Source: Halobaculum sp. MBLA0143
GTDB taxonomy: Archaea > Halobacteriota > Halobacteria > Halobacteriales > Haloferacaceae
DNA length: 64,000 nt
Assembly (NCBI RefSeq): GCF_041361465.1
Contig: NZ_JBGKAC010000001.1
Coordinates: forward strand, 2,170,001-2,234,000
Direction of reading: 5' to 3'
Shown here: in pieces, positions 2 through 40,917 of the stretch
Layout of the letters: every line of letters starts with the position of its first letter
Position numbering within the stretch: the first letter of the stretch is position 1
Notes under the pieces: model-generated
Told to the model about the DNA's origin: nothing
Databases searched by the model: none
What the model saw: the letters and a program-made list of their open reading frames with translations, nothing else
Position numbers and translations under genes: made by a program

Positions 2-3000
2 CGTGTCGGTCACGGTCGTCGTCTTCCCCTCGGCGTCCGTGACGGTCGCCGTCACCGTCGCCGGCCCGTCGGCGAGCCCTCCCGTGTCCACCGGAACGGT
101 CGCGGTGTAGTTGCCCGCGCGCCTCTGGAGTCGGACCGTCGACTCGTTGCCGACCGCCGACAGGTCGGCCGTCACCGTGTCGACGCCGCTCGTGGCGTCC
201 GACGCCGTGACGTTCACCCGCACCCGGGAGTCGTTCGTGACGAAGCGTCCGCCGGTGACGGCCCGGACGACCCCGGTCGCGGTCGGCGCTGCGGTGTCCA
301 GGGGCACCGTCGCCGTCGCGGTCTGGGTGTTGTTCGCCCGGTCGCGCACCCGGACCGTCACCGTCCGGGGGCCGCTCCCGCCGGCGGCGTCGCCGTCGGC
401 CGTCACCGTCCGACTGTACACCCCGTCGTCGTCCCCGTCCGTCAGCCCGACCGCGTCGCCCGCGCCCACGGCCGACAGGTCTGCCGTCACGTCGCCCGTG
501 TCGATCCCGGTGCCGTCGTCCGTCGGCGCGACCACGACCGTGAGCTTCTCCCCGTCCGTGAGCCCGCCGTCGCCCTCCTCGGTCGTCAGCGTCGGCGTCG
601 GAACCGTCGGCGCCGTCGTGTCGACCGTCACCGTCGGCGTCCGCCGGGTCGTCTGGTCGACCCAGTCCCGGACCGTCACCGGGAGTTCGACCGTGCCCGT
701 CGCCGCCGTCGCTGCGTCGACGGTCGTCGTGACCGTCACGCTCCCGTCCGTCGGGGTGCGGGTGACCACGCTCCCGCCGACGCGAGTGAGATTCACCCGG
801 ACCGTCTCCACGCCCGCCGTGGCGTCGCTCGCCGTCACCTGGAGCGTCAGCGTCTCGCCGTCCCGGACCCGGTCGTCGTCGCCGTCGCCGTCCGTGACCG
901 ACAGCCCGGAGACAGTCGGTGCCGCCGTGTCCAGCGTGACCGTCGCCGCGGTCGTCGTCGCCAGCCTGGCCTGGTCTTCCCCGGTCACGTCGACCGTCAC
1001 GTCACCGTCCGGGTCCGCGTCGTCCGCGTCCACGCTCCCCTGGCCCGTGTACGTCCCGCCGCCCTGGTGGGTGAGCGTCACCGTCCCGGCGCCGAGCGGG
1101 CCGAGGTCGGCCGTCACGCGCCGGACGTTCGACCCCGTCCCGTCGACGGTCGCCGTCACCGTCACCGTCTCCCCGTCCGTCGCGTTGGCGTCCGTCTCCG
1201 CGCCGGTCGTCACGGTCACGCCCGACACCGTCGGCGGGGTCGTGTCCAGTCGGACGGAGCCGCTCGCGTTCGTGACCGCGTTGCCGGCGCCGTCCGTCGC
1301 CGTCGCCGGCAGCGAGACCACGCCGTCCGACGGCCCGCTCGCGTCCACCGTCACCGTCCGGTCGTACACCCCGTCGTCGTCCCCGTCCGTCAGCCCGACC
1401 GCGTCACCGCCACCGATCCCGGTCAGGTCCGCCGTCACGTCGACGCCGGTCGGTCCCGGGTCGGTCACGGTCGCGCGGACGGTCACGTCCGCTCCGTCGC
1501 GGACCACCCTGTCGCCGTTCGCCTCGTCGACGACTGTCACCGACGACACGGTCGGCGGCGACGCGTCGACGGTGAGCGAGCGCGAGCCGTCCGTCGCGTC
1601 GTTGCCCGCGGTGTCGACCGCCTCCACCTCGACCGGAGTCGTGCCGTCCGTCGGGTCGCCGTCCGACCCGACCGTCACCGTCCGGTCGTACACCCCGTCG
1701 TCGTCCCCGTCGGTCAGTGTCGCGGCCGTCGTCGAGACACCCAACGCCGTCACCGTCGCGTCGGTCAGTCGGACGGTCTCGACGGAGCGGTCGTCCGAGA
1801 CCGTCGCTTCCACCGTCACCGTCTCGCCCGCCCGGACGCGGCCGTCGTCCCCGTCGCCGTCCGCGACCGTCACCGCCGACACCGTCGGCGGCGTCGCGTC
1901 GACGACGACGGCGCCGGTCGTCGCCGTCTCCGTGTTCGTCTCCACGTCTTCGACCGTCACGTCGGCCGTCTGTGCCCCCTCCGTCGCTCCGGGTTGGACC
2001 GTCCGCACGACCGTGTAGTCGCCGTCCGCGTCCGGCGCCCCCAGACTGACCGTTCCGAGCCCGAACGCCGACAGGTCCGCCCGCACCGCGTCGACGCCGC
2101 TCGTGGCGTCGCTGGCGTCCACCGTGACGCGCACGTCGTCGCCCGGCCGGACGACTCCGTCCCCGTCCCGGGGCGTCGGGTCGCCGTCGTCCGCCTCCGC
2201 GAGCGCGACCGCGTCGATCACCGGCGCCGTCGAGTCGAGCTGGAGCGAGTCCTGCGAGGTCGCCGTCCGCGACTGCCCTTCTGCGTCCGTCACGGTCACG
2301 TCGACCGTGTACTCCCCGTCGCCGGCGGCCGCGGACTGTCGGACCGACCGCTCGACAGTGTACTCCCCGCCCGCGAGCGTCGCCGGCACGGCGTCGCCCA
2401 GCCCGAACGCGGAGAGGTTCACCGTCACGCCGCTCACGCCGGTCGCGTCCGCGGCGTCGACGGTGACGTTCACCGTGTCCCCGTCGCCGACCGCGCCGTC
2501 GCCGTTGGTCGCGTCCCGGACGCCGACCTCCGCGACCGTCGGCGGACCGCCGTCGAACACCGGCCCCACTTCCGACGTCGTCCGTCGGTTGGCCGTCGCG
2601 TCCGACGCCGAGACCGACACCGTGTCGGCACCGTCCGTCCCGGTCGCCGCCGAGTCCTGGTAGCCGTAGTCGTCACCCCCCTGCGGCGAGAGAGTGACGG
2701 TCCCGAGCCCGTACGCCGACAGGTCTGCCGTCACCGTCGCGTCGACGACGCCGCTGCGGCCGTCCGTGACGGTCACCGTCACCGTCACCCGCTCGCCGGC
2801 GACCACGCCGCCGTCGGCGTCCTCGTCGGTCACGGACAGCCCCGACAGCGTCGGCGCCGTGTCGTCCACGATCACCGACGCCGACCCGGTCGCCGTCTGG
2901 CCTTCCGCGTCCGTCACGGTCACGCCGACGGTCGCCGTTCCCGAGCCGACGCTCCCGACCGTGACCGTCGTCTCCGGGTCCCCGTCGCTGTCCGTGTCTG

Positions 3001-4717
3001 TCAGCGTCACGTCCGCGCCCCCGCCCAGCGCCGACAGGTCCGCCCGCACGCTGTCGACACCGCTCGTGGCGTCCGTCGCGGCCACCTCCACCGTCACCTC
3101 GTCGCCCGGACTCACGTAGCCGTCCCCCTCCGTGCCGCCGTCCGTCTCCGTCTCGGTCGGCGTCACGCGTTCGACGGTCGGCGCCGTCAGGTCGACGACG
3201 GTCTCGGCTGTCTCTCCGTTCGACACGTCCGGGTCCGGCTCCGTCCGGTCGCGCGCCTCCGTCAGTGTCGCCGTCACGTCACCGTCGCCGGCGAGCGAGA
3301 CGGTCGCCGTGTAGACGTTCCCCGGCGACTCCCCGAACGTCGCGTTGGCGACTGCCGTCGTCGTCCCGTCGCGGTCGACGGTCGCCGCCACCGTCCCCAG
3401 CCGCTCGGACGCCTCCACCTCGACCGTGACCGCCGGACTCCCGGGGGTGGAACTGTTGATCACCTCGAACCGCTCGATCGCCGGCGGGCGGTCGATCCGG
3501 ACGCTCCCGGCCGACTTCGTCTGCTCGTTGTCGAGCCCGTCGCGGAGCGTCACCGGAACCGAGTACGTGCCGTCCGGGTCCGCGTCCGCCGTGTCGACGG
3601 TCACGCTCGTCTCGTAGGTGCCGTCGTCGTCTGCGTCCGTCAGTTCGACCGTCGAGCCGGCGCCGAGCGCCGACAGGTCCGCCTCGACCCGGTCGACGCC
3701 GGTGGTGTCCGACACGCCCGTGGCCGTGACGGTGACCGTGTCGCCGTCTGTCACCGGTCCGCCGCCCGAGACGGACACCGACAGCGACGACACCGACGGC
3801 GCGGTCGTGTCGATCCCGAGACTGCCGGTCCGTGCGGTGTCGGCGTTCGTCGGCGACGCCGTGTCCTCGGCGGTGAGCTGTACGTCGTGCGCCCCCTCCG
3901 TCACACTGCCCGCCGAGCCGACCGTGATCGTCGCGGCGTACGTCCCGCCGCCCTGGTCCGTCAGCGTGACCGTGCCGGCACCGAACGCCTCCGTGTCCAC
4001 CGTGACGTTCGCCACGTCGGTGGTGGCGTCGAACACCCCAGTCGCCTCGACGCGAATCTGGTCGCCCGGCGCGACCGTGCCGTCGACGCCGTCGTTCTCG
4101 ACGTCCGACAGGGTCGCGTTCGCGGCCGTCAGGACCGGTGGCGTCGTGTCGACGACAGTGTCGTCGACGACGTCGGTCGTGTCCGCGCTCCCGCCGCCGC
4201 CCGTCTCGGCCGTCCCGAGGTCCACCGTGTAGTCGCCGTCACCGCCGAAGTTGGTCGCCTGGAACGTCGCCTCGTACGTGTACGGCCCCGTGCCGCTCTC
4301 CGAGAAGTCCGCCTCGTTCAGAACACCCTTGAACCCGCCCTCGTGCTCGATCGACGCCTGAATCTCGCTCAACTGCTGGCTGCTGTCGAACGTCACCCTC
4401 ACCGTGTCGGCCGTCGGGTTCGTCACGGCGTACTCGGAGACCGTCGGGCCGGCCAGGGCGTTCGCGGCCACCGGCGGCGCGCCGTCCCCTCGTTCGTCGC
4501 CGGGCGCCGCTGGTCTTACCCCGTCGCCGGGCGGCACCCCCGTCCCGACCCCGTCGTCGGGCGGCACCCACGTCTCGACCTCGTCGTCGGGCGGCGCTGG
4601 CCCTACCCCGTCGCCGGGCGGCACCCCGACGGACAGCCCCGCCCCTCCGGCGACCACGACGACCGCGAGCAGCACCGCCACGAACGACTGGGCGTCCGTT
4701 CTCCCGAGACTGGTCAT
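2..4717 (-). CDS. Giant Ig-like repeat surface protein (C-terminus beyond window)
   Basis: The minus strand is open from an ATG at 4717 to the left edge, giving at least 1572 codons. The N-terminus has one hydrophobic segment (residues about 12-32), fitting a signal peptide or membrane anchor. A low-complexity stretch of about 10-residue units built on VPPGDG follows (about residues 31-80). After that come about 13 modules of roughly 100-115 residues. Module boundaries carry a D-x-[TS]-[AP]-P-x-[VIL] motif, and inside each module D-A-T-S-G-V-D and A-D-L-S-A-x-G recur, as in bacterial Ig-like or cadherin-like surface proteins. The acidic composition suits an exported halophile adhesin or S-layer-associated protein. 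The C-terminal anchor (for example PGF-CTERM) is not visible, so sorting is unknown. Function in adhesion is inference. Confidence 0.85.
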   Translation of the reverse strand, partial: MTSLGRTDAQSFVAVLLAVVVVAGGAGLSVGVPPGDGVGPAPPDDEVETWVPPDDGVGTGVPPGDGVRPAAPGDERGDGAPPVAANALAGPTVSEYAVTNPTADTVRVTFDSSQQLSEIQASIEHEGGFKGVLNEADFSESGTGPYTYEATFQATNFGGDGDYTVDLGTAETGGGGSADTTDVVDDTVVDTTPPVLTAANATLSDVENDGVDGTVAPGDQIRVEATGVFDATTDVANVTVDTEAFGAGTVTLTDQGGGTYAATITVGSAGSVTEGAHDVQLTAEDTASPTNADTARTGSLGIDTTAPSVSSLSVSVSGGGPVTDGDTVTVTATGVSDTTGVDRVEADLSALGAGSTVELTDADDDGTYETSVTVDTADADPDGTYSVPVTLRDGLDNEQTKSAGSVRIDRPPAIERFEVINSSTPGSPAVTVEVEASERLGTVAATVDRDGTTTAVANATFGESPGNVYTATVSLAGDGDVTATLTEARDRTEPDPDVSNGETAETVVDLTAPTVERVTPTETETDGGTEGDGYVSPGDEVTVEVAATDATSGVDSVRADLSALGGGADVTLTDTDSDGDPETTVTVGSVGSGTATVGVTVTDAEGQTATGSASVIVDDTAPTLSGLSVTDEDADGGVVAGERVTVTVTVTDGRSGVVDATVTADLSAYGLGTVTLSPQGGDDYGYQDSAATGTDGADTVSVSASDATANRRTTSEVGPVFDGGPPTVAEVGVRDATNGDGAVGDGDTVNVTVDAADATGVSGVTVNLSAFGLGDAVPATLAGGEYTVERSVRQSAAAGDGEYTVDVTVTDAEGQSRTATSQDSLQLDSTAPVIDAVALAEADDGDPTPRDGDGVVRPGDDVRVTVDASDATSGVDAVRADLSAFGLGTVSLGAPDADGDYTVVRTVQPGATEGAQTADVTVEDVETNTETATTGAVVVDATPPTVSAVTVADGDGDDGRVRAGETVTVEATVSDDRSVETVRLTDATVTALGVSTTAATLTDGDDDGVYDRTVTVGSDGDPTDGTTPVEVEAVDTAGNDATDGSRSLTVDASPPTVSSVTVVDEANGDRVVRDGADVTVRATVTDPGPTGVDVTADLTGIGGGDAVGLTDGDDDGVYDRTVTVDASGPSDGVVSLPATATDGAGNAVTNASGSVRLDTTPPTVSGVTVTTGAETDANATDGETVTVTATVDGTGSNVRRVTADLGPLGAGTVTLTHQGGGTYTGQGSVDADDADPDGDVTVDVTGEDQARLATTTAATVTLDTAAPTVSGLSVTDGDGDDDRVRDGETLTLQVTASDATAGVETVRVNLTRVGGSVVTRTPTDGSVTVTTTVDAATAATGTVELPVTVRDWVDQTTRRTPTVTVDTTAPTVPTPTLTTEEGDGGLTDGEKLTVVVAPTDDGTGIDTGDVTADLSAVGAGDAVGLTDGDDDGVYSRTVTADGDAAGGSGPRTVTVRVRDRANNTQTATATVPLDTAAPTATGVVRAVTGGRFVTNDSRVRVNVTASDATSGVDTVTADLSAVGNESTVRLQRRAGNYTATVPVDTGGLADGPATVTATVTDAEGKTTTVTDT

Positions 4718-35598: not shown

Positions 35599-38500
35599 AT
35601 GGCCGACGGCGACGCCCTCCACGGCGCACTCCAGACGATCGGAACGCAGACGGATTCGGACATGAGCGAGCGTGACGTGGAGAGTCTCTTCCTCGAACAC
35701 GAGTTCTACGACGCGCTCGGCTACGAGGGGACTGGCGTCGACCTCCAGAGCGAATTCAGCCTCCCGGACAACCGACGGCCGGACTACATCACACGAGACA
35801 CGAACAGGGCGGTCACCGCAGTCTACGAGTTCAAGACCACTGGGGCCGACCTGCTCGAACACGAGTCACAGCTGTTCGACTACATGGACGAGCTCCGTTC
35901 GAAGTACGGAGTGTTGACCAACGGGGAGACCCTTCGGCTGTACCGACGCGGGGAGACGACTGCGATCAGTGTCGTGGCGTTGGAGTCGGCAACCGCGAGC
36001 GAGGCACGCGACCTGGCGAGCGCCCTGGAGAAACGGGAGTTCGACCTCACGGACCCCGACGACGTGAACCAGTTGCTCGACAGTTCCGACCCGATTCCGC
36101 TCGACAGGAACGCCGACCTCGGGAAGGACCACTTCTTCGACACGTTCCAGCTCGACGACCGGAGTCCGTTCGCCGATCTCGTCACCGGGCTGATGGATCT
36201 GTTGCACGAACTCAGAGACGAGCGGGACAGGAAGTTCGTGGAGGGTGCGTACGACTTCTGGGAGGCGACGTACGCCGACATCCCGGACGAAGATGACATC
36301 CCGACCGCGTGGGAGCCGTTCGTCGACGGTGACGACTCGCTCCGTGACTTCATGTTCTGTCTGGAGAGCGGCCACGCACTGCTCTCGCGGCTCCTGTTGG
36401 CGAAGGCGACGGAGGATCACGACTTCTTCGCCGGCACCGGCTACGACGGGATGCAGGGGTACTTCCGCGGGCTACAGGGGTTCAGCGACAGCATCAACCT
36501 CGATGCGTTCCCGGTCGCGGCCAACAACCTCATCGACGACATGCAAGAGCAGTTGGTCGAGGGGTTGTTCCAGGACGACATCTTCGTCTGGTGGACCGAC
36601 GGATACAGGGAGCAACTGGATCGCGGTCACGGGAGCGGCGTGAATCAGTTCGAGGACGTGGCTCGCGGGAGCGGGTCGGTCGAGCGGATCAGTGAGGCGA
36701 CCCGAGACCGGTTCAGCCGTGCGGTCGCGGAGGTGTTCTTCAACGTCCTCCGGTTCGACTTCGAGGACGTCGAAGGCGACCTCCTGGGTGATCTGTATCA
36801 GCAGTACTTCGACCCGGAGACGCGGAAGGCGCTCGGGGAGTTCTACACGCCACAGCCGGTGATCGACTACATCATGGACGGCGTCGGCTACGACCGTGGG
36901 GTGTCGGGCGAGCGGCTGATCGACCCGGCGTGTGGCTCCGGGACGTTCCTCGTCGAGGCGATCGAGCGGTATCTCGACGACATCGAGCGGTACGAGGACG
37001 ACCCGAACTGGGAGGAACACCTGCGTGATCTCTGTACGCGGCCGCGGGTGGTCGGGCTGGACATCCACCCGTTCGCGGTGTTGATGGCACAGATTCGGTT
37101 CGTCGTCGCAATCCTCCCGGCGTACCAGAAGGCCAAGACACAGAACCCCGACTTCACACTCCGTCGACTGCCGATCTACCGGACGGACACACTTCGCAAC
37201 GAGAGAAAATTGACGGGCGTCGACCTCGGTGACGACGGCTCACAGCAGTTGACCCTCGACGCAGTAACCGAGGACGAACAAGACGTGTTGATCCCCGTTC
37301 CGTTGCCTGTAGAGGTGGACGAAGGCAACGGACAGGAGACCGATGACGGATTCCTCGTTCGACGGGTCCGGATGCCGTTGTTCGAGACGATCCAACTGGG
37401 GACGGGTGTCGACAACTTCGGGGAGTACTTCGCGGCCCTCCAAGGCGTTCTCGACAACGTCAAGGATCACATGCAGTACGCCGAGGAGGTGGGTGACGAC
37501 TTCGACTGGGAGTACCAGAGTGGGCTCGCTGAGAGTATCGGAACGTACACTTCCCGAGACTACGACGGTGTCGAGGAGTTCTTCGCGCCGTACGTCGACG
37601 ACATGCTGGAGAACGTCCAGTACCTCAAGGAGGAACACAACGACGGGCGGCTGTTCAAGATGTTCGAGGACACCGTCCTCGCGTTGGTCGTCAAGAACTA
37701 CATGGAGTACGACTACGTCGTCGGGAATCCGCCGTACGTTCGCGTCCAGAACCTCCCGGACGATCAGAAGACGATGCTAGAGGAACTGTACACCTCGACG
37801 ACGGGCAACTACGACATCTACTGTCCGTTCTACGAGCGGGGGCTCGACTGGCTCTCGGAGGACACCGGAAAGCTCGGCTACATCACGCCGAACCAGTTCG
37901 CGGTCACGGACTACGGCGAGGGACTGCGAGAGGTCCTGCTCCGTGACTCTCGGATCGAAGAGGTGTACGACTTCCGCGACTCCGGCGTGTTCGAGGACGC
38001 GACCAACTATCCGGCAATCGTGATCGCCGAAGACGAACCGGACGCGGACGTTCGGGAGAGCAACGACATCCGGTGTGTCCGGGTGAAGGCGGACACGGAC
38101 GACGACGACGAAGGGCGGGAACTGGACGAGGCGATCATCGACGGCGTGCGAGACCACCGCGACGAGCCGGGCTATAGTGACGACCTGATCGACGTGTTCG
38201 ACTTCCCGCAGAGGAAGCTGTCTCCAGAGCGGTACTGGGCGTTCATGCCGCCCGAGGAGTTGCAGGTGTTCGAGAAGTTGGAAGAGAACAGCACCGACGA
38301 GTTCGAGGACATTACTGACGCCATCTTCGCCGGGACACAGACGAGTGCCAACAAGGTGTACTTGGTGAAGCCAGTCAACGCGGATCGAATTCTCCCCAGC
38401 AGTACGGGAGGCACTGTCAAAGTCGTTCCAACCGGGGAGTCCCGTGAGTACGAAATCGAGACGGACCTCCTCTGTCCGTGGCTGAACGGTGACGATGTCG

Positions 38501-39516
38501 GGCGCTGGAGAGGTGAGTGGTCGGGACTGCACGTAATCCTGCCCCACTACGTCGAGCACGAAGACGGAGAGCCGACGACGAAGTCGTACGACAGAGAGTA
38601 CCTTCGTGAGAACCTTCCGCTGACTTGGGAGTACTTCGAGGCTCACAGAGAAGCCCTGGAAGGGAGAGAGAGTGGCCGAATGGAGGGTGAAGACGACTGG
38701 TACTCGTTCATCTACCCGAAGAGTCACCCTAGATTCGAGAAGCCGAAGATGATAGGCGCACACATCTCACAGAGCGCCCGGTTCATGCTCGACAGCGAAG
38801 GTGTCTGGTACTTCAAGACGGCGTACGGAATCGAATTAGACGAGCCGTACCGTCACCTCACAGAAGAGATAGCCTGCCAACTCAACTCGAAGGCGCTCGA
38901 CTTCTACTTCAAGCACATCACGACAGTCAAGATGGGCGGCTACTACGAGTACCGCTCACAGTACGTCGAGAAGCTACCCTGTGTCACCTCCGACGACGGA
39001 GGGGAGTTCGAGACGATGGAAGAGTCCGCCAACGAGATCGTCGACACAGTCGACCTCGACAGCAAGACCAAACGGTTCCCGGAGGCGTACCTCGGCGACT
39101 ACGACGGCGAACTCCAGTACATCGACTACGAGTGGCAAACTGGCCGACGCCCGGTAGACGCCAGCGTGCAAGGAGAAGTGGACGGTGACTTCACCGTCCA
39201 AGCGGGGCGCACGGACACGATCCGGGACCCGGCGATGTACTCCGACGAGCGCGAGGCCCGGAAGCGCCGTGCGGAGTACGTCCACGCGGCCGTCGACGGC
39301 CGCAACGTCAAGAGCGGCGAGGAGACCTCAATCCCGATCCCGCGCAGCGACGCCGGCGTGGAGGAACTGCTCGCGCGACTGGAGGCAGACCGCGAGCGTG
39401 TCGCCGAGACCGACATCGACGCGCTGGAGGCCGAGATCGACGACGCCGTCTACGACCTGTTCGGCCTCACGCCGGACGAGCGCGAGGTGGTCGAGGAGTA
39501 TCTGGAGGTGTTCTGA
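35599..39516 (+). CDS. Type IIG restriction-modification enzyme (Eco57I-like, N6-adenine methylase fusion)
   Basis: A 1305-residue single-chain enzyme. The N-terminal nuclease domain has a PD-(D/E)xK pattern: R-R-P-D-Y-I (about 58-63) and Y-E-F-K-T-T (about 75-80), then Y-G-V-L-T-N-G. A helical linker leads to F-Y-T-P-Q-P-V-I-D-Y-I. Methylase motif I is D-P-A-C-G-S-G-T-F-L (about 443-452) and motif IV is N-P-P-Y-V-R-V (about 708-714). The last 400 residues hold a TaqI-like target-recognition region and a C-terminal helical part with an acidic coiled coil. It would methylate adenine and cut nearby; cleavage and site are untested. No separate specificity subunit is present. Confidence 0.93.
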   Translation: MADGDALHGALQTIGTQTDSDMSERDVESLFLEHEFYDALGYEGTGVDLQSEFSLPDNRRPDYITRDTNRAVTAVYEFKTTGADLLEHESQLFDYMDELRSKYGVLTNGETLRLYRRGETTAISVVALESATASEARDLASALEKREFDLTDPDDVNQLLDSSDPIPLDRNADLGKDHFFDTFQLDDRSPFADLVTGLMDLLHELRDERDRKFVEGAYDFWEATYADIPDEDDIPTAWEPFVDGDDSLRDFMFCLESGHALLSRLLLAKATEDHDFFAGTGYDGMQGYFRGLQGFSDSINLDAFPVAANNLIDDMQEQLVEGLFQDDIFVWWTDGYREQLDRGHGSGVNQFEDVARGSGSVERISEATRDRFSRAVAEVFFNVLRFDFEDVEGDLLGDLYQQYFDPETRKALGEFYTPQPVIDYIMDGVGYDRGVSGERLIDPACGSGTFLVEAIERYLDDIERYEDDPNWEEHLRDLCTRPRVVGLDIHPFAVLMAQIRFVVAILPAYQKAKTQNPDFTLRRLPIYRTDTLRNERKLTGVDLGDDGSQQLTLDAVTEDEQDVLIPVPLPVEVDEGNGQETDDGFLVRRVRMPLFETIQLGTGVDNFGEYFAALQGVLDNVKDHMQYAEEVGDDFDWEYQSGLAESIGTYTSRDYDGVEEFFAPYVDDMLENVQYLKEEHNDGRLFKMFEDTVLALVVKNYMEYDYVVGNPPYVRVQNLPDDQKTMLEELYTSTTGNYDIYCPFYERGLDWLSEDTGKLGYITPNQFAVTDYGEGLREVLLRDSRIEEVYDFRDSGVFEDATNYPAIVIAEDEPDADVRESNDIRCVRVKADTDDDDEGRELDEAIIDGVRDHRDEPGYSDDLIDVFDFPQRKLSPERYWAFMPPEELQVFEKLEENSTDEFEDITDAIFAGTQTSANKVYLVKPVNADRILPSSTGGTVKVVPTGESREYEIETDLLCPWLNGDDVGRWRGEWSGLHVILPHYVEHEDGEPTTKSYDREYLRENLPLTWEYFEAHREALEGRESGRMEGEDDWYSFIYPKSHPRFEKPKMIGAHISQSARFMLDSEGVWYFKTAYGIELDEPYRHLTEEIACQLNSKALDFYFKHITTVKMGGYYEYRSQYVEKLPCVTSDDGGEFETMEESANEIVDTVDLDSKTKRFPEAYLGDYDGELQYIDYEWQTGRRPVDASVQGEVDGDFTVQAGRTDTIRDPAMYSDEREARKRRAEYVHAAVDGRNVKSGEETSIPIPRSDAGVEELLARLEADRERVAETDIDALEAEIDDAVYDLFGLTPDEREVVEEYLEVF

Positions 39517-39571
39517 CCGCCACAGCCTACCGAATCACACCCTTCTCACCCACCCTCAGTTTGTCACCGAA

Positions 39572-39580: not shown

Positions 39581-39601
39581 CCAACCGCAGAGCAAGCGTT
39601 A

Positions 39602-39707
39602 AGTGCCCCTAGGCGCGATGGGAAACTACGACGCTGCGGGCGCGTCACTCGAAAGAGTGGCAGGGTGTTGGAGCACCCTACCCGCTGCGTCGTGGGCCAT
39701 CCACGAC
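39602..39707 (+). ncRNA. Candidate structured leader RNA (three-way junction with competing hairpin)
   Basis: The outer stem pairs 39626-39640 with 39681-39695: 13 Watson-Crick pairs, one G-U and one mismatch. It encloses two perfect hairpins: CACTC-GAAA-GAGTG (39646-39659, GNRA tetraloop) and AGGGTG-TTGGAG-CACCCT (39662-39679). A fourth hairpin, GTCGTGG-GCCAT-CCACGAC (39689-39707), shares its 5' arm with the 3' arm of the outer stem, so the two cannot form together. It ends one base before an in-frame ATG at 39708. The layout fits a riboswitch-like or translational switch. It matches no family I can name. It is not supported by expression data. Confidence 0.5.
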
Positions 39708-40106
39708 ATGTGTTCGAACACTTCGCCGTCTGAAAAGCATGACGGCACGGTGGACGTATCGGAGCTGTGCGACCAGTACGAGCAGCACGTCGAGACCGTC
39801 GAGCAGCTACCGCTGCCGGCACACCGGATCGACTCGCTCGTCGCGGAGACGGAGACGGTTCGGGAGACCCTGGCGACGGACGGGGCGGTGCCGGCGAGGA
39901 CGCTCCAGACGCTCCTCTGTGTGATCGCGGAGGCAATCGGCGACGTGGAGCACGCCCGGACGGTGTCGCCGACGGCCGCGCGGGACGCGGACCGACGCGA
40001 CAGCGACCCGCGACCCGAACTGACGCCCGACGAGCAGGCGACGTGTCTCGACGCGCTGTCGCAGTTGCAGTTCGCGGTCGTCGAGACGCCGGTCGGGAGC
40101 GACTGA
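39708..40106 (+). CDS. Hypothetical acidic protein downstream of the structured RNA
   Basis: 132 residues from ATG 39708, or 118 from GTG 39750 (M-D-V-S-E-L-C-D-Q-Y). The product is mostly helical, with E-L-C-D-Q-Y-E-Q-H-V-E-T-V, L-L-C-V-I-A-E-A-I-G-D-V-E-H-A, and a C-terminal L-D-A-L-S-Q-L-Q-F-A-V-V-E-T-P-V. I recognise no family. The ATG is favoured by its position right after the hairpin, but codon use is better from the GTG. A perfect palindrome, GTGTTCGAACAC (39710-39721), overlaps the start. The 3' end is duplicated at 40865-40911. Confidence 0.6.
   Translation: MCSNTSPSEKHDGTVDVSELCDQYEQHVETVEQLPLPAHRIDSLVAETETVRETLATDGAVPARTLQTLLCVIAEAIGDVEHARTVSPTAARDADRRDSDPRPELTPDEQATCLDALSQLQFAVVETPVGSD
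40047..40093. repeat. Direct repeat copy 1 (3' end of the 39708 gene)
   Basis: These 47 bases match 40865-40911 at 43 positions, in the same orientation and reading frame. Copies are 818 bp apart and flank vapBC. Confidence 0.8.
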
Positions 40107-40168: not shown

Positions 40169-40558
40169 TCAGTAGGTCTCGATCTCGACACCGAGCCGTT
40201 CGAAGTCGTCGACGTTCCGTGTGAGTACGGGTTCGTCGACGACCTCGGCGGTGGCGGCGATGATGACGTCACCGTCGCCGACCGGTGTGCCGTCGTTCTG
40301 TAGTTCGCCGGCGAGTCGCCCTGCCTTCCGCATCACGGCCGTGTCGGCGGGGTAGACCGGCTTCGACGCGAGCACGTCTTCGACCGTCTTCCGTTCGGCC
40401 GCCGAGTCGGTCGCGCGAGCGACCCCGTAGTACAGTTCGAACAGCGTCATCGCCGACAGGCGCTGTTGGACGAGATTCGCTTCGAGTTCGCGTGCCTTCT
40501 CCACGGCGTCGGCGTCACCGTTCATCAGATCGACGAGATAGGCGGTGTCGAGGAGCAT
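40169..40558 (-). CDS. vapC: VapC-type PIN-domain toxin
   Basis: A 129-residue PIN domain. Acidic residues: Asp4 in M-L-L-D-T-A-Y-L-V-D-L, Glu in L-F-E-L-Y-Y-G-V (about 41), Asp in V-G-D-G-D-V-I-I-A-A (about 94-96) and Asp in V-L-T-R-N-V-D-D-F (about 116). This is the metal-binding quartet of VapC RNases. It follows vapB by one base and is co-transcribed with it. Target RNA unknown. Confidence 0.93.
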   Translation of the reverse strand: MLLDTAYLVDLMNGDADAVEKARELEANLVQQRLSAMTLFELYYGVARATDSAAERKTVEDVLASKPVYPADTAVMRKAGRLAGELQNDGTPVGDGDVIIAATAEVVDEPVLTRNVDDFERLGVEIETY

Positions 40559-40559
40559 G

Positions 40560-40790
40560 CTACCGCAGTTTGTCGGCCGTCGATTCGAGTTCGGCCGCCC
40601 GGCGCTCGCGTCGCTCCGAGATTGCGTCCCGAAGCGCGTCTGCTTCCTCGTCGCTCAACACCCCGGCGAGATCCAACAGCGACCGCTCCCCGGCGAGACG
40701 GAGCACGACATCCGAGAACGTCTCGTCGTCTGCCTTGTGTGCGTCGAGCCGTTCGTAGGCTTCCTCCGAGAGTCGGATGCTCTTCGACAT
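40560..40790 (-). CDS. vapB: VapB-type antitoxin
   Basis: 76 residues from ATG 40790 (an ATG at 40796 would add two). The N-terminus K-S-I-R-L-S-E-E-A-Y-E-R-L is a ribbon-helix-helix-type DNA-binding pattern of archaeal VapB. S-D-V-V-L-R-L belongs to the same domain, and the C-terminal helix S-E-R-R-E-R-R-A-A-E-L would wrap the toxin. The 40790 start is favoured because a TATA-like AGATATG sits about 28-31 bases upstream. Confidence 0.88.
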   Translation of the reverse strand: MSKSIRLSEEAYERLDAHKADDETFSDVVLRLAGERSLLDLAGVLSDEEADALRDAISERRERRAAELESTADKLR

Positions 40791-40791
40791 G

Positions 40792-40809
40792 TGCATACAG
40801 TTGTATGCA
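40792..40809. promoter_or_regulatory. Perfect palindrome at the vapB start (autoregulatory operator)
   Basis: TGCATACAGTTGTATGCA is an 8-2-8 perfect inverted repeat immediately upstream of the vapB ATG at 40790 and downstream of its TATA element. That is where a VapBC complex would bind to repress its own operon. Confidence 0.65.
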
Positions 40810-40837: not shown

Positions 40838-40917
40838 ATGCCGTCGGCCGTTCGTGTCACAGACCTCGACGCCCTCTCGCAGTTGCGGTTCGCGGTCGTC
40901 AAGACGCCGGTGGCGAT
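40838..40917 (+). pseudogene. Remnant of the 39708-type gene (3'-end fragment)
   Basis: The frame from ATG 40838 reads V-T-D-L-D-A-L-S-Q-L-R-F-A-V-V-K-T-P-V and matches the end of the protein encoded at 39708-40106. It then diverges at the point where that gene ends and has no stop at the equivalent place. Only about 20 residues are recognisable, so this is a fragment, not a gene. Confidence 0.55.
40865..40911. repeat. Direct repeat copy 2 (fragment beyond vapB)
   Basis: Second copy of the 47-base sequence at 40047-40093, with four mismatches. It lies on the other side of the vapBC pair. Confidence 0.8.

Follow-up and report, generated by a model that had tools for sequence, protein, structure and literature searches.

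Covariation across homologs shows a conserved structured leader with two mutually exclusive pairings at the start codon, followed here from a 64,000-nucleotide stretch of the Halobaculum sp. MBLA0143 genome (the window) into other Halobacteriales and into haloviruses. The reading that we favor, with reasonable though not high confidence, is that it represents a new family of cis-acting leaders shared by Halobacteria and their viruses, in which competition between an outer stem (P1) and a segment directly before the start codon (anti-P1) would determine whether the start site is open or closed.

Structure of the leader in the window

RNA folding gave a three-way junction of helices P1, P2, and P3 at positions 39626 to 39695 with a minimum free energy (MFE) of -47.3 kcal/mol (Table 1). 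None of 200 dinucleotide shuffles folded as low (mean, -30.5; standard deviation, 3.4; z, -5). P1 pairs 39626-39640 with 39681-39695 over 15 positions, including one U-U mismatch and one G-U pair. Its last nucleotides (39689-39695), a segment conserved across copies, are common to P1 and to a competing 7-bp hairpin, in which they pair with 39701-39707. A first-pass annotation of this DNA had described the outer stem, both inner hairpins, the GAAA loop, and the mutually exclusive 7-bp hairpin, and folding recovered all of them at the same positions. It had placed the competing hairpin one base short of the ATG; in fact, zero bases intervene, and 39707 abuts the ATG at 39708.

Table 1. Features of the leader locus and its surroundings (positions in the window)
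Feature	Position	Strand	Basis or remark
Type IIG restriction-modification/PglX-like gene, directly upstream, outside the RNA	35599..39516	+	Eco57I (Pfam); PADLOC MTase_II, REase_MTase_IIG, PglX
Conserved TATA core TTAAGT, predicted leader promoter	39599..39604	+	Core spacing in 96 aligned copies
P1 5' arm	39626..39640	+	Fold; outer part 39626-39634, mismatch 39635, inner part 39636-39640
P2 hairpin, 7 bp, GAAA loop	39644..39661	+	Fold
P3 hairpin, 7 bp	39662..39679	+	Fold
P1 3' arm	39681..39695	+	Fold
Anti-P1 segment CCACGAC	39701..39707	+	Complementary to 39689-39695; flush with ATG at 39708
Short ORF, 132 aa, predicted helical bundle	39708..40106	+	Homologs; AlphaFold2 pLDDT 87.6
P4 hairpin inside the ORF, codons 7-13	39726..39745	+	Modeled pairs 92% formed; 2/7 with double changes
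VapC-like PIN and VapB-like genes, downstream, convergent	40169..40796	-	Pfam PIN, VAPB_antitox

Copies and covariation across the Halobacteriales

A blastn search with 181 bases returned 8 places in the same genome and matched two congeners at 8 to 13 places each, with no match in the other relatives searched. The copies within the genus have in common the junction, the pre-ATG segment, the start, and P4, and their proteins diverge downstream. A covariance model built from 29 of these own-genus and congener copies (R1) found 16 copies in a fourth species, ahead of a different protein, and one copy in each of two genomes of another genus, ahead of a CxxC protein; R1 matches on the reverse strand were rejected as a palindromic shadow of the stems. 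The second model (R2) came from a structural alignment of 33 copies that held no viral sequence. Changes on both sides occur at 14 of 31 pairs of that alignment, which was matched by 0 of 500 shuffles, and R2 had matches in 14 genomes of the order, from 9 genera. The most divergent copies fell out of register in P1 and P2 when aligned with MAFFT, and those alignments were left out of the models.

For the third model (R3), 20 diverse copies from 16 genomes and the virus HJTV-4 were aligned; it comprises three helices with 24 pairs. Both sides change at 22 of the 24 pairs, counts that lean toward the R2 structure to which the alignment was fitted. These double changes take in all 12 modeled pairs of P1, all 6 of P2, and 4 of the 6 in P3, where the remaining 2 are invariant. 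Paired cells make up 95.3% of the R3 alignment, compared with 72.7% after shuffling (0 of 500 as high) and 35 to 47% when slid. The first-pass annotation had made its reading depend on covariation of the stems among homologs; they do covary, including ahead of unrelated genes.

At E <= 0.01, R3 has matches in 298 of 392 Halobacteriales genomes and 81 of 95 genera, a count that includes chance matches. The best match reaches E <= 1e-6 in about 240 genomes (counted from the table of matches), nearly all of which gave no training sequence. Outside the order, about 240 genomes of the phylum yielded a sole match, at E 0.007, as a partial control with unmatched GC content. A strict test, which called for at least 5 Watson-Crick pairs ending no more than 2 nt from an ATG that opens an ORF of at least 35 codons, was passed by 15 of 20 newly found strong copies and by 10 of 30 weak matches (E 6e-8 to 0.009); strong R3 matches are thus mostly real and weak ones mixed. 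With fuller scoring at E <= 0.001, the copy number is 10 in this genome, 13 in a congener, and 51 in the genome G461.

About ten copies lie within 12.5 kb of one 63-kb contig of G461 (L165; G461:C5:1000-13500). Decayed copies are found in the genome G003 (L059 and L076), with the start codon changed from ATG to ACG or with a degraded junction, and L061 holds at 2971-3041 a second, truncated copy without the junction that retains the pre-start segment and P4. No DNA homologs were found in plasmids, and a search of genome contigs with the pattern CACGAC-ATGTGTTCGAAC returned only the same MAG (JAHENP01), one Halorubrum MAG, and unrelated bacteria.

Mutually exclusive pairings of P1 and the pre-start segment

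Within the 10 nt before the ATG, 69 of 74 copies carry a stretch of at least 5 nt with Watson-Crick complementarity to the upstream arm, which shuffled arms give in 19%. The anti-P1 helix is mostly flush with the ATG across the 74 copies, and the sequence of the segment differs between gene families. The genus itself has the combination GUCGUG..CACGAC-AUG, and in other groups P1 and the pre-ATG segment have changed jointly, to GGGUGU..ACACCC-AUG and GGUUCU..AGAACC-AUG. Some copies have an anti-P1 helix of 4 bp only (e.g., L051, L055, L070, L073, and L118) or of 5 bp with bulges. Forcing the anti-P1 helix costs a median of 4.2 kcal/mol above the MFE (range, 0 to 12.9), and because this state lies above the MFE, P1 is the predicted ground state; P2 and P3 remain intact in the forced structures predicted for this genus.

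Two mutually exclusive helices, one of which touches the start codon, are the mark of a translational switch leader. That this is the layout of a start-codon switch had been suggested from the window alone; comparison now strongly supports it, since there is covariation both within the stems and, in unrelated genes, between the pre-ATG segment and the P1 3' arm. From this we infer an effect on translation, with the leader probably working as a switch of translation start.

Promoter and predicted transcript start

Across 96 aligned copies, those of viruses among them, motif counts are dominated by a TTAA/TTTA core clustered at -28/-29 from the first P1 pair, and 88 of the 96 have a TATA-like core within -36 to -20. 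The TATA-like CCTATAATT at 39571, earlier put forward as the promoter, is not this box; the conserved one stands 28 to 29 nt before P1. Given that spacing, the transcript is predicted to begin at P1, probably near 39625, so that P1 would form the 5' end of the mRNA and the element would probably be the entire 5' UTR.

Leader copies in haloviruses

Relatives of a SWIM protein that follows some leaders led to viral contigs. At six viral loci (HJTV-4, the IMG/VR contig L199, Humcor1, L197, Deep Lake Halorubrum virus, and BJ1), the best unfiltered R2 match was in each case a leader directly upstream of an early gene. R2 gave E 4e-6 in the 23 kb of HJTV-4 and 3.5e-4 in L199, where the SWIM gene stands directly behind the leader. 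The R3 values were 3e-12 for L199, 3e-8 for the Deep Lake viruses, 5e-8 for Humcor1, and 4e-7 for BJ1, HJTV-4 having belonged to the R3 training set. An exact pattern based on P3 had no match in viral contigs. HJTV-4, Humcor1, and the Deep Lake virus DL1 have their annotated start at the ATG with which the element ends. ORF7 of BJ1 is annotated from a valine (GTG) start that falls inside the RNA (L193; BJ1 virus 3547-3600); the conserved ATG lies 51 nt downstream, at about 3598. The leaders of BJ1 and HJTV-4 each stand between the operon behind them and a divergent upstream regulator gene, annotated as a possible winged-helix repressor in BJ1 and as similar to a MarR regulator in HJTV-4. The viruses phiH1 and phiCh1 were rejected as members, with R3 values of only 0.07 and 0.02 and no P1 in phiH1.

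A P1 predicted at the 5' end of the transcript and an anti-P1 hairpin that ends 0 to 2 nt from the AUG would also suit a leader of processing and stability. P1 would then block 5' exonucleases, cleavage at the AUG-flush hairpin would produce a leaderless mRNA, and the exchange would control decay or maturation, not ribosome access. Leaderless mRNAs are common in haloarchaea. The leader of the halovirus phiH T1 transcript is cleaved after pairing with an antisense RNA (PMC4284463). T1, with its antisense T(ant), resembles the present family in heading a halovirus early lytic transcript beside a divergent immunity gene, with a leader of 151 nt from annotated start to ATG. It differs in that its best R3 match is 14.1 bits, most P1 pairs are broken, and the combination of P1, P2, P3, and anti-P1 is absent. 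This one precedent for cleavage does not itself form the family P1, and we regard the processing alternative as unlikely.

Comparison with known RNAs

Searched against Rfam 15 at the gathering threshold, the whole window gave one tRNA only, and five leader loci searched at E <= 5 gave no riboswitch match. The first-pass annotation had been unable to match the RNA to a known riboswitch, and no Rfam 15 family matched it here either. The loose likeness to c-di-GMP-I riboswitches that it had noted did not hold up, as RF01051 was matched neither in the window at the gathering threshold nor in the five loci at the relaxed E value. That class shares with the window copy a three-way junction and a GAAA loop, but the loop is not kept in other leader copies and cmscan gave no match.

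The leader resembles translational riboswitches more generally in being a single cis element of the predicted 5' UTR with a P1-closed junction whose P1 3' arm also pairs at the start codon; it differs from them in its very diverse genes, in its archaeal and viral distribution, and in that no conserved aptamer core was found. A new class of small-molecule riboswitch, in which the P2/P3 junction serves as the aptamer and P1/anti-P1 as the expression platform, would account for this layout and for a regulon that joins unrelated genes across many genomes. However, junction lengths and loop sequences vary strongly, the alignments of diverse copies, judged by eye, contain no strictly conserved unpaired junction bases, and the controlled genes have no common pathway; together with the lack of an Rfam riboswitch match, this makes such a riboswitch improbable in our judgment.

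The leader represents a new RNA family and, as a kind, is a switch-like cis leader. No description of it was found in the open full-text literature, a coverage that leaves out most subscription journals. Known classes of cis-regulatory RNA are very few in archaea.

Proposed mechanism

In the translational switch that we favor, P1 in the first state would close the three-way junction and leave the pre-AUG segment single stranded, so that a ribosome could load. In the second, the pre-AUG segment would invade the P1 3' arm and form a hairpin of 5 to 9 bp ending 0 to 2 nt from the AUG, which should hinder initiation. P2 and P3 would be folded in both states, at least in this genus. P1 would accordingly be the ON state, and its exchange with anti-P1 would gate ribosome access. 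P1 is the more stable helix in almost all copies, with a margin of up to ~13 kcal/mol, so that switching is unlikely to be spontaneous unless a factor or cotranscriptional kinetics assists. We propose that many genes share a trans-acting factor that may shift the P1/anti-P1 balance. Such a factor is more likely to be a protein or an RNase than a metabolite because conserved unpaired bases are lacking.

The ORF behind the leader

The product of the 132-aa ORF belongs to a paralogous family in the genus. It has no Pfam match, and a fold search of the PDB returned nothing below E 0.001, with weak matches to small helical bundles. AlphaFold2 modeled the helical body confidently and the N-terminal residues with low confidence. 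Among 34 paralogs of the genus, the same residue at codons 2-4, 7, 9, 11, 12, and 14 is nearly always written with the same codon, and several of the codons near the start (GAT, CAA, and TCT/TCA) are rare in the rest of these ORFs. This pattern would fit selection on the RNA around the start. P4 is conserved mainly in this genus. A palindrome around codons 2-4 (TGTTCGAACA; 39710-39719) is conserved as GTTCGAAC in most paralogs of the genus. Beyond the ORF, 40865-40916 is an 88% repeat of 40047-40098, from its C-terminal part, and is the remnant of a second, decayed paralog.

Downstream genes and their neighborhoods

The proteins encoded downstream of the leaders are diverse and include helical paralogs without a Pfam match, SWIM zinc fingers (Pfam), CxxC zinc fingers, acidic helical proteins, and the products of viral early genes. 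Conflict genes adjoin many of the copies inspected, namely, type IIG/DrmMI-like genes (the window and L083), GmrSD (L094), a PLD-helicase (L095), and HsdM (L168), and the copy at L069 adjoins a CRISPR-like array with a Cas2-like ORF, as judged by eye. No conflict-gene neighbor was seen at others, e.g., L156, L164, and L167. The genome G001 has 9 of its 16 eCIS_core genes within about 1.2 kb of a leader copy; at its loci L086-L092, L068, and L174, eCIS_core genes adjoin leader copies, some with possible immunity arrays of ankyrin or tandem paralogs. The Halobaculum genome has no eCIS_core gene. In another haloarchaeon, secreted toxins are among the eCIS_core (DUF4157) proteins (PMC11566945). 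The conflict-gene neighborhood is an association in some lineages, arising partly through duplication of whole modules.

Dispersal in many copies next to defense and toxin genes, often near contig ends in MAGs, could also point to a DNA element that travels together with its passenger gene, either a mobile repeat or a cruciform bearing protein-binding repeats. The ends of IS200/IS605 elements and omega RNA are likewise dispersed, multicopy hairpins adjoining an ORF, but the leader differs from them in being held in register with the start codon and the promoter, and no transposase or TnpB was recognized in the leader contexts inspected. A binding site would keep its sequence and not covary, whereas the stems here covary across different genes and viruses, and we give a DNA element very little credence.

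Implications

The great majority of sampled haloarchaeal genera have this RNA, with as many as 51 copies in a genome, and sequenced haloviruses carry it too. It makes testable the question of how haloarchaea control translation start on mRNAs with a leader, as well as that of a posttranscriptional step in the early regions of haloviruses, and it gives a handle on uncharacterized families of small proteins adjoining defense and eCIS_core genes. More tentatively, and as a possibility that we rate below even chances, haloarchaea may have spread a virus-borne regulatory RNA over numerous accessory genes beside defense and toxin systems, such that one leader class and one shared factor would set a conflict regulon at translation start or mRNA maturation. 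If true, such a regulon, with up to 51 leader copies in a genome, would be a previously undescribed type of archaeal posttranscriptional regulon.
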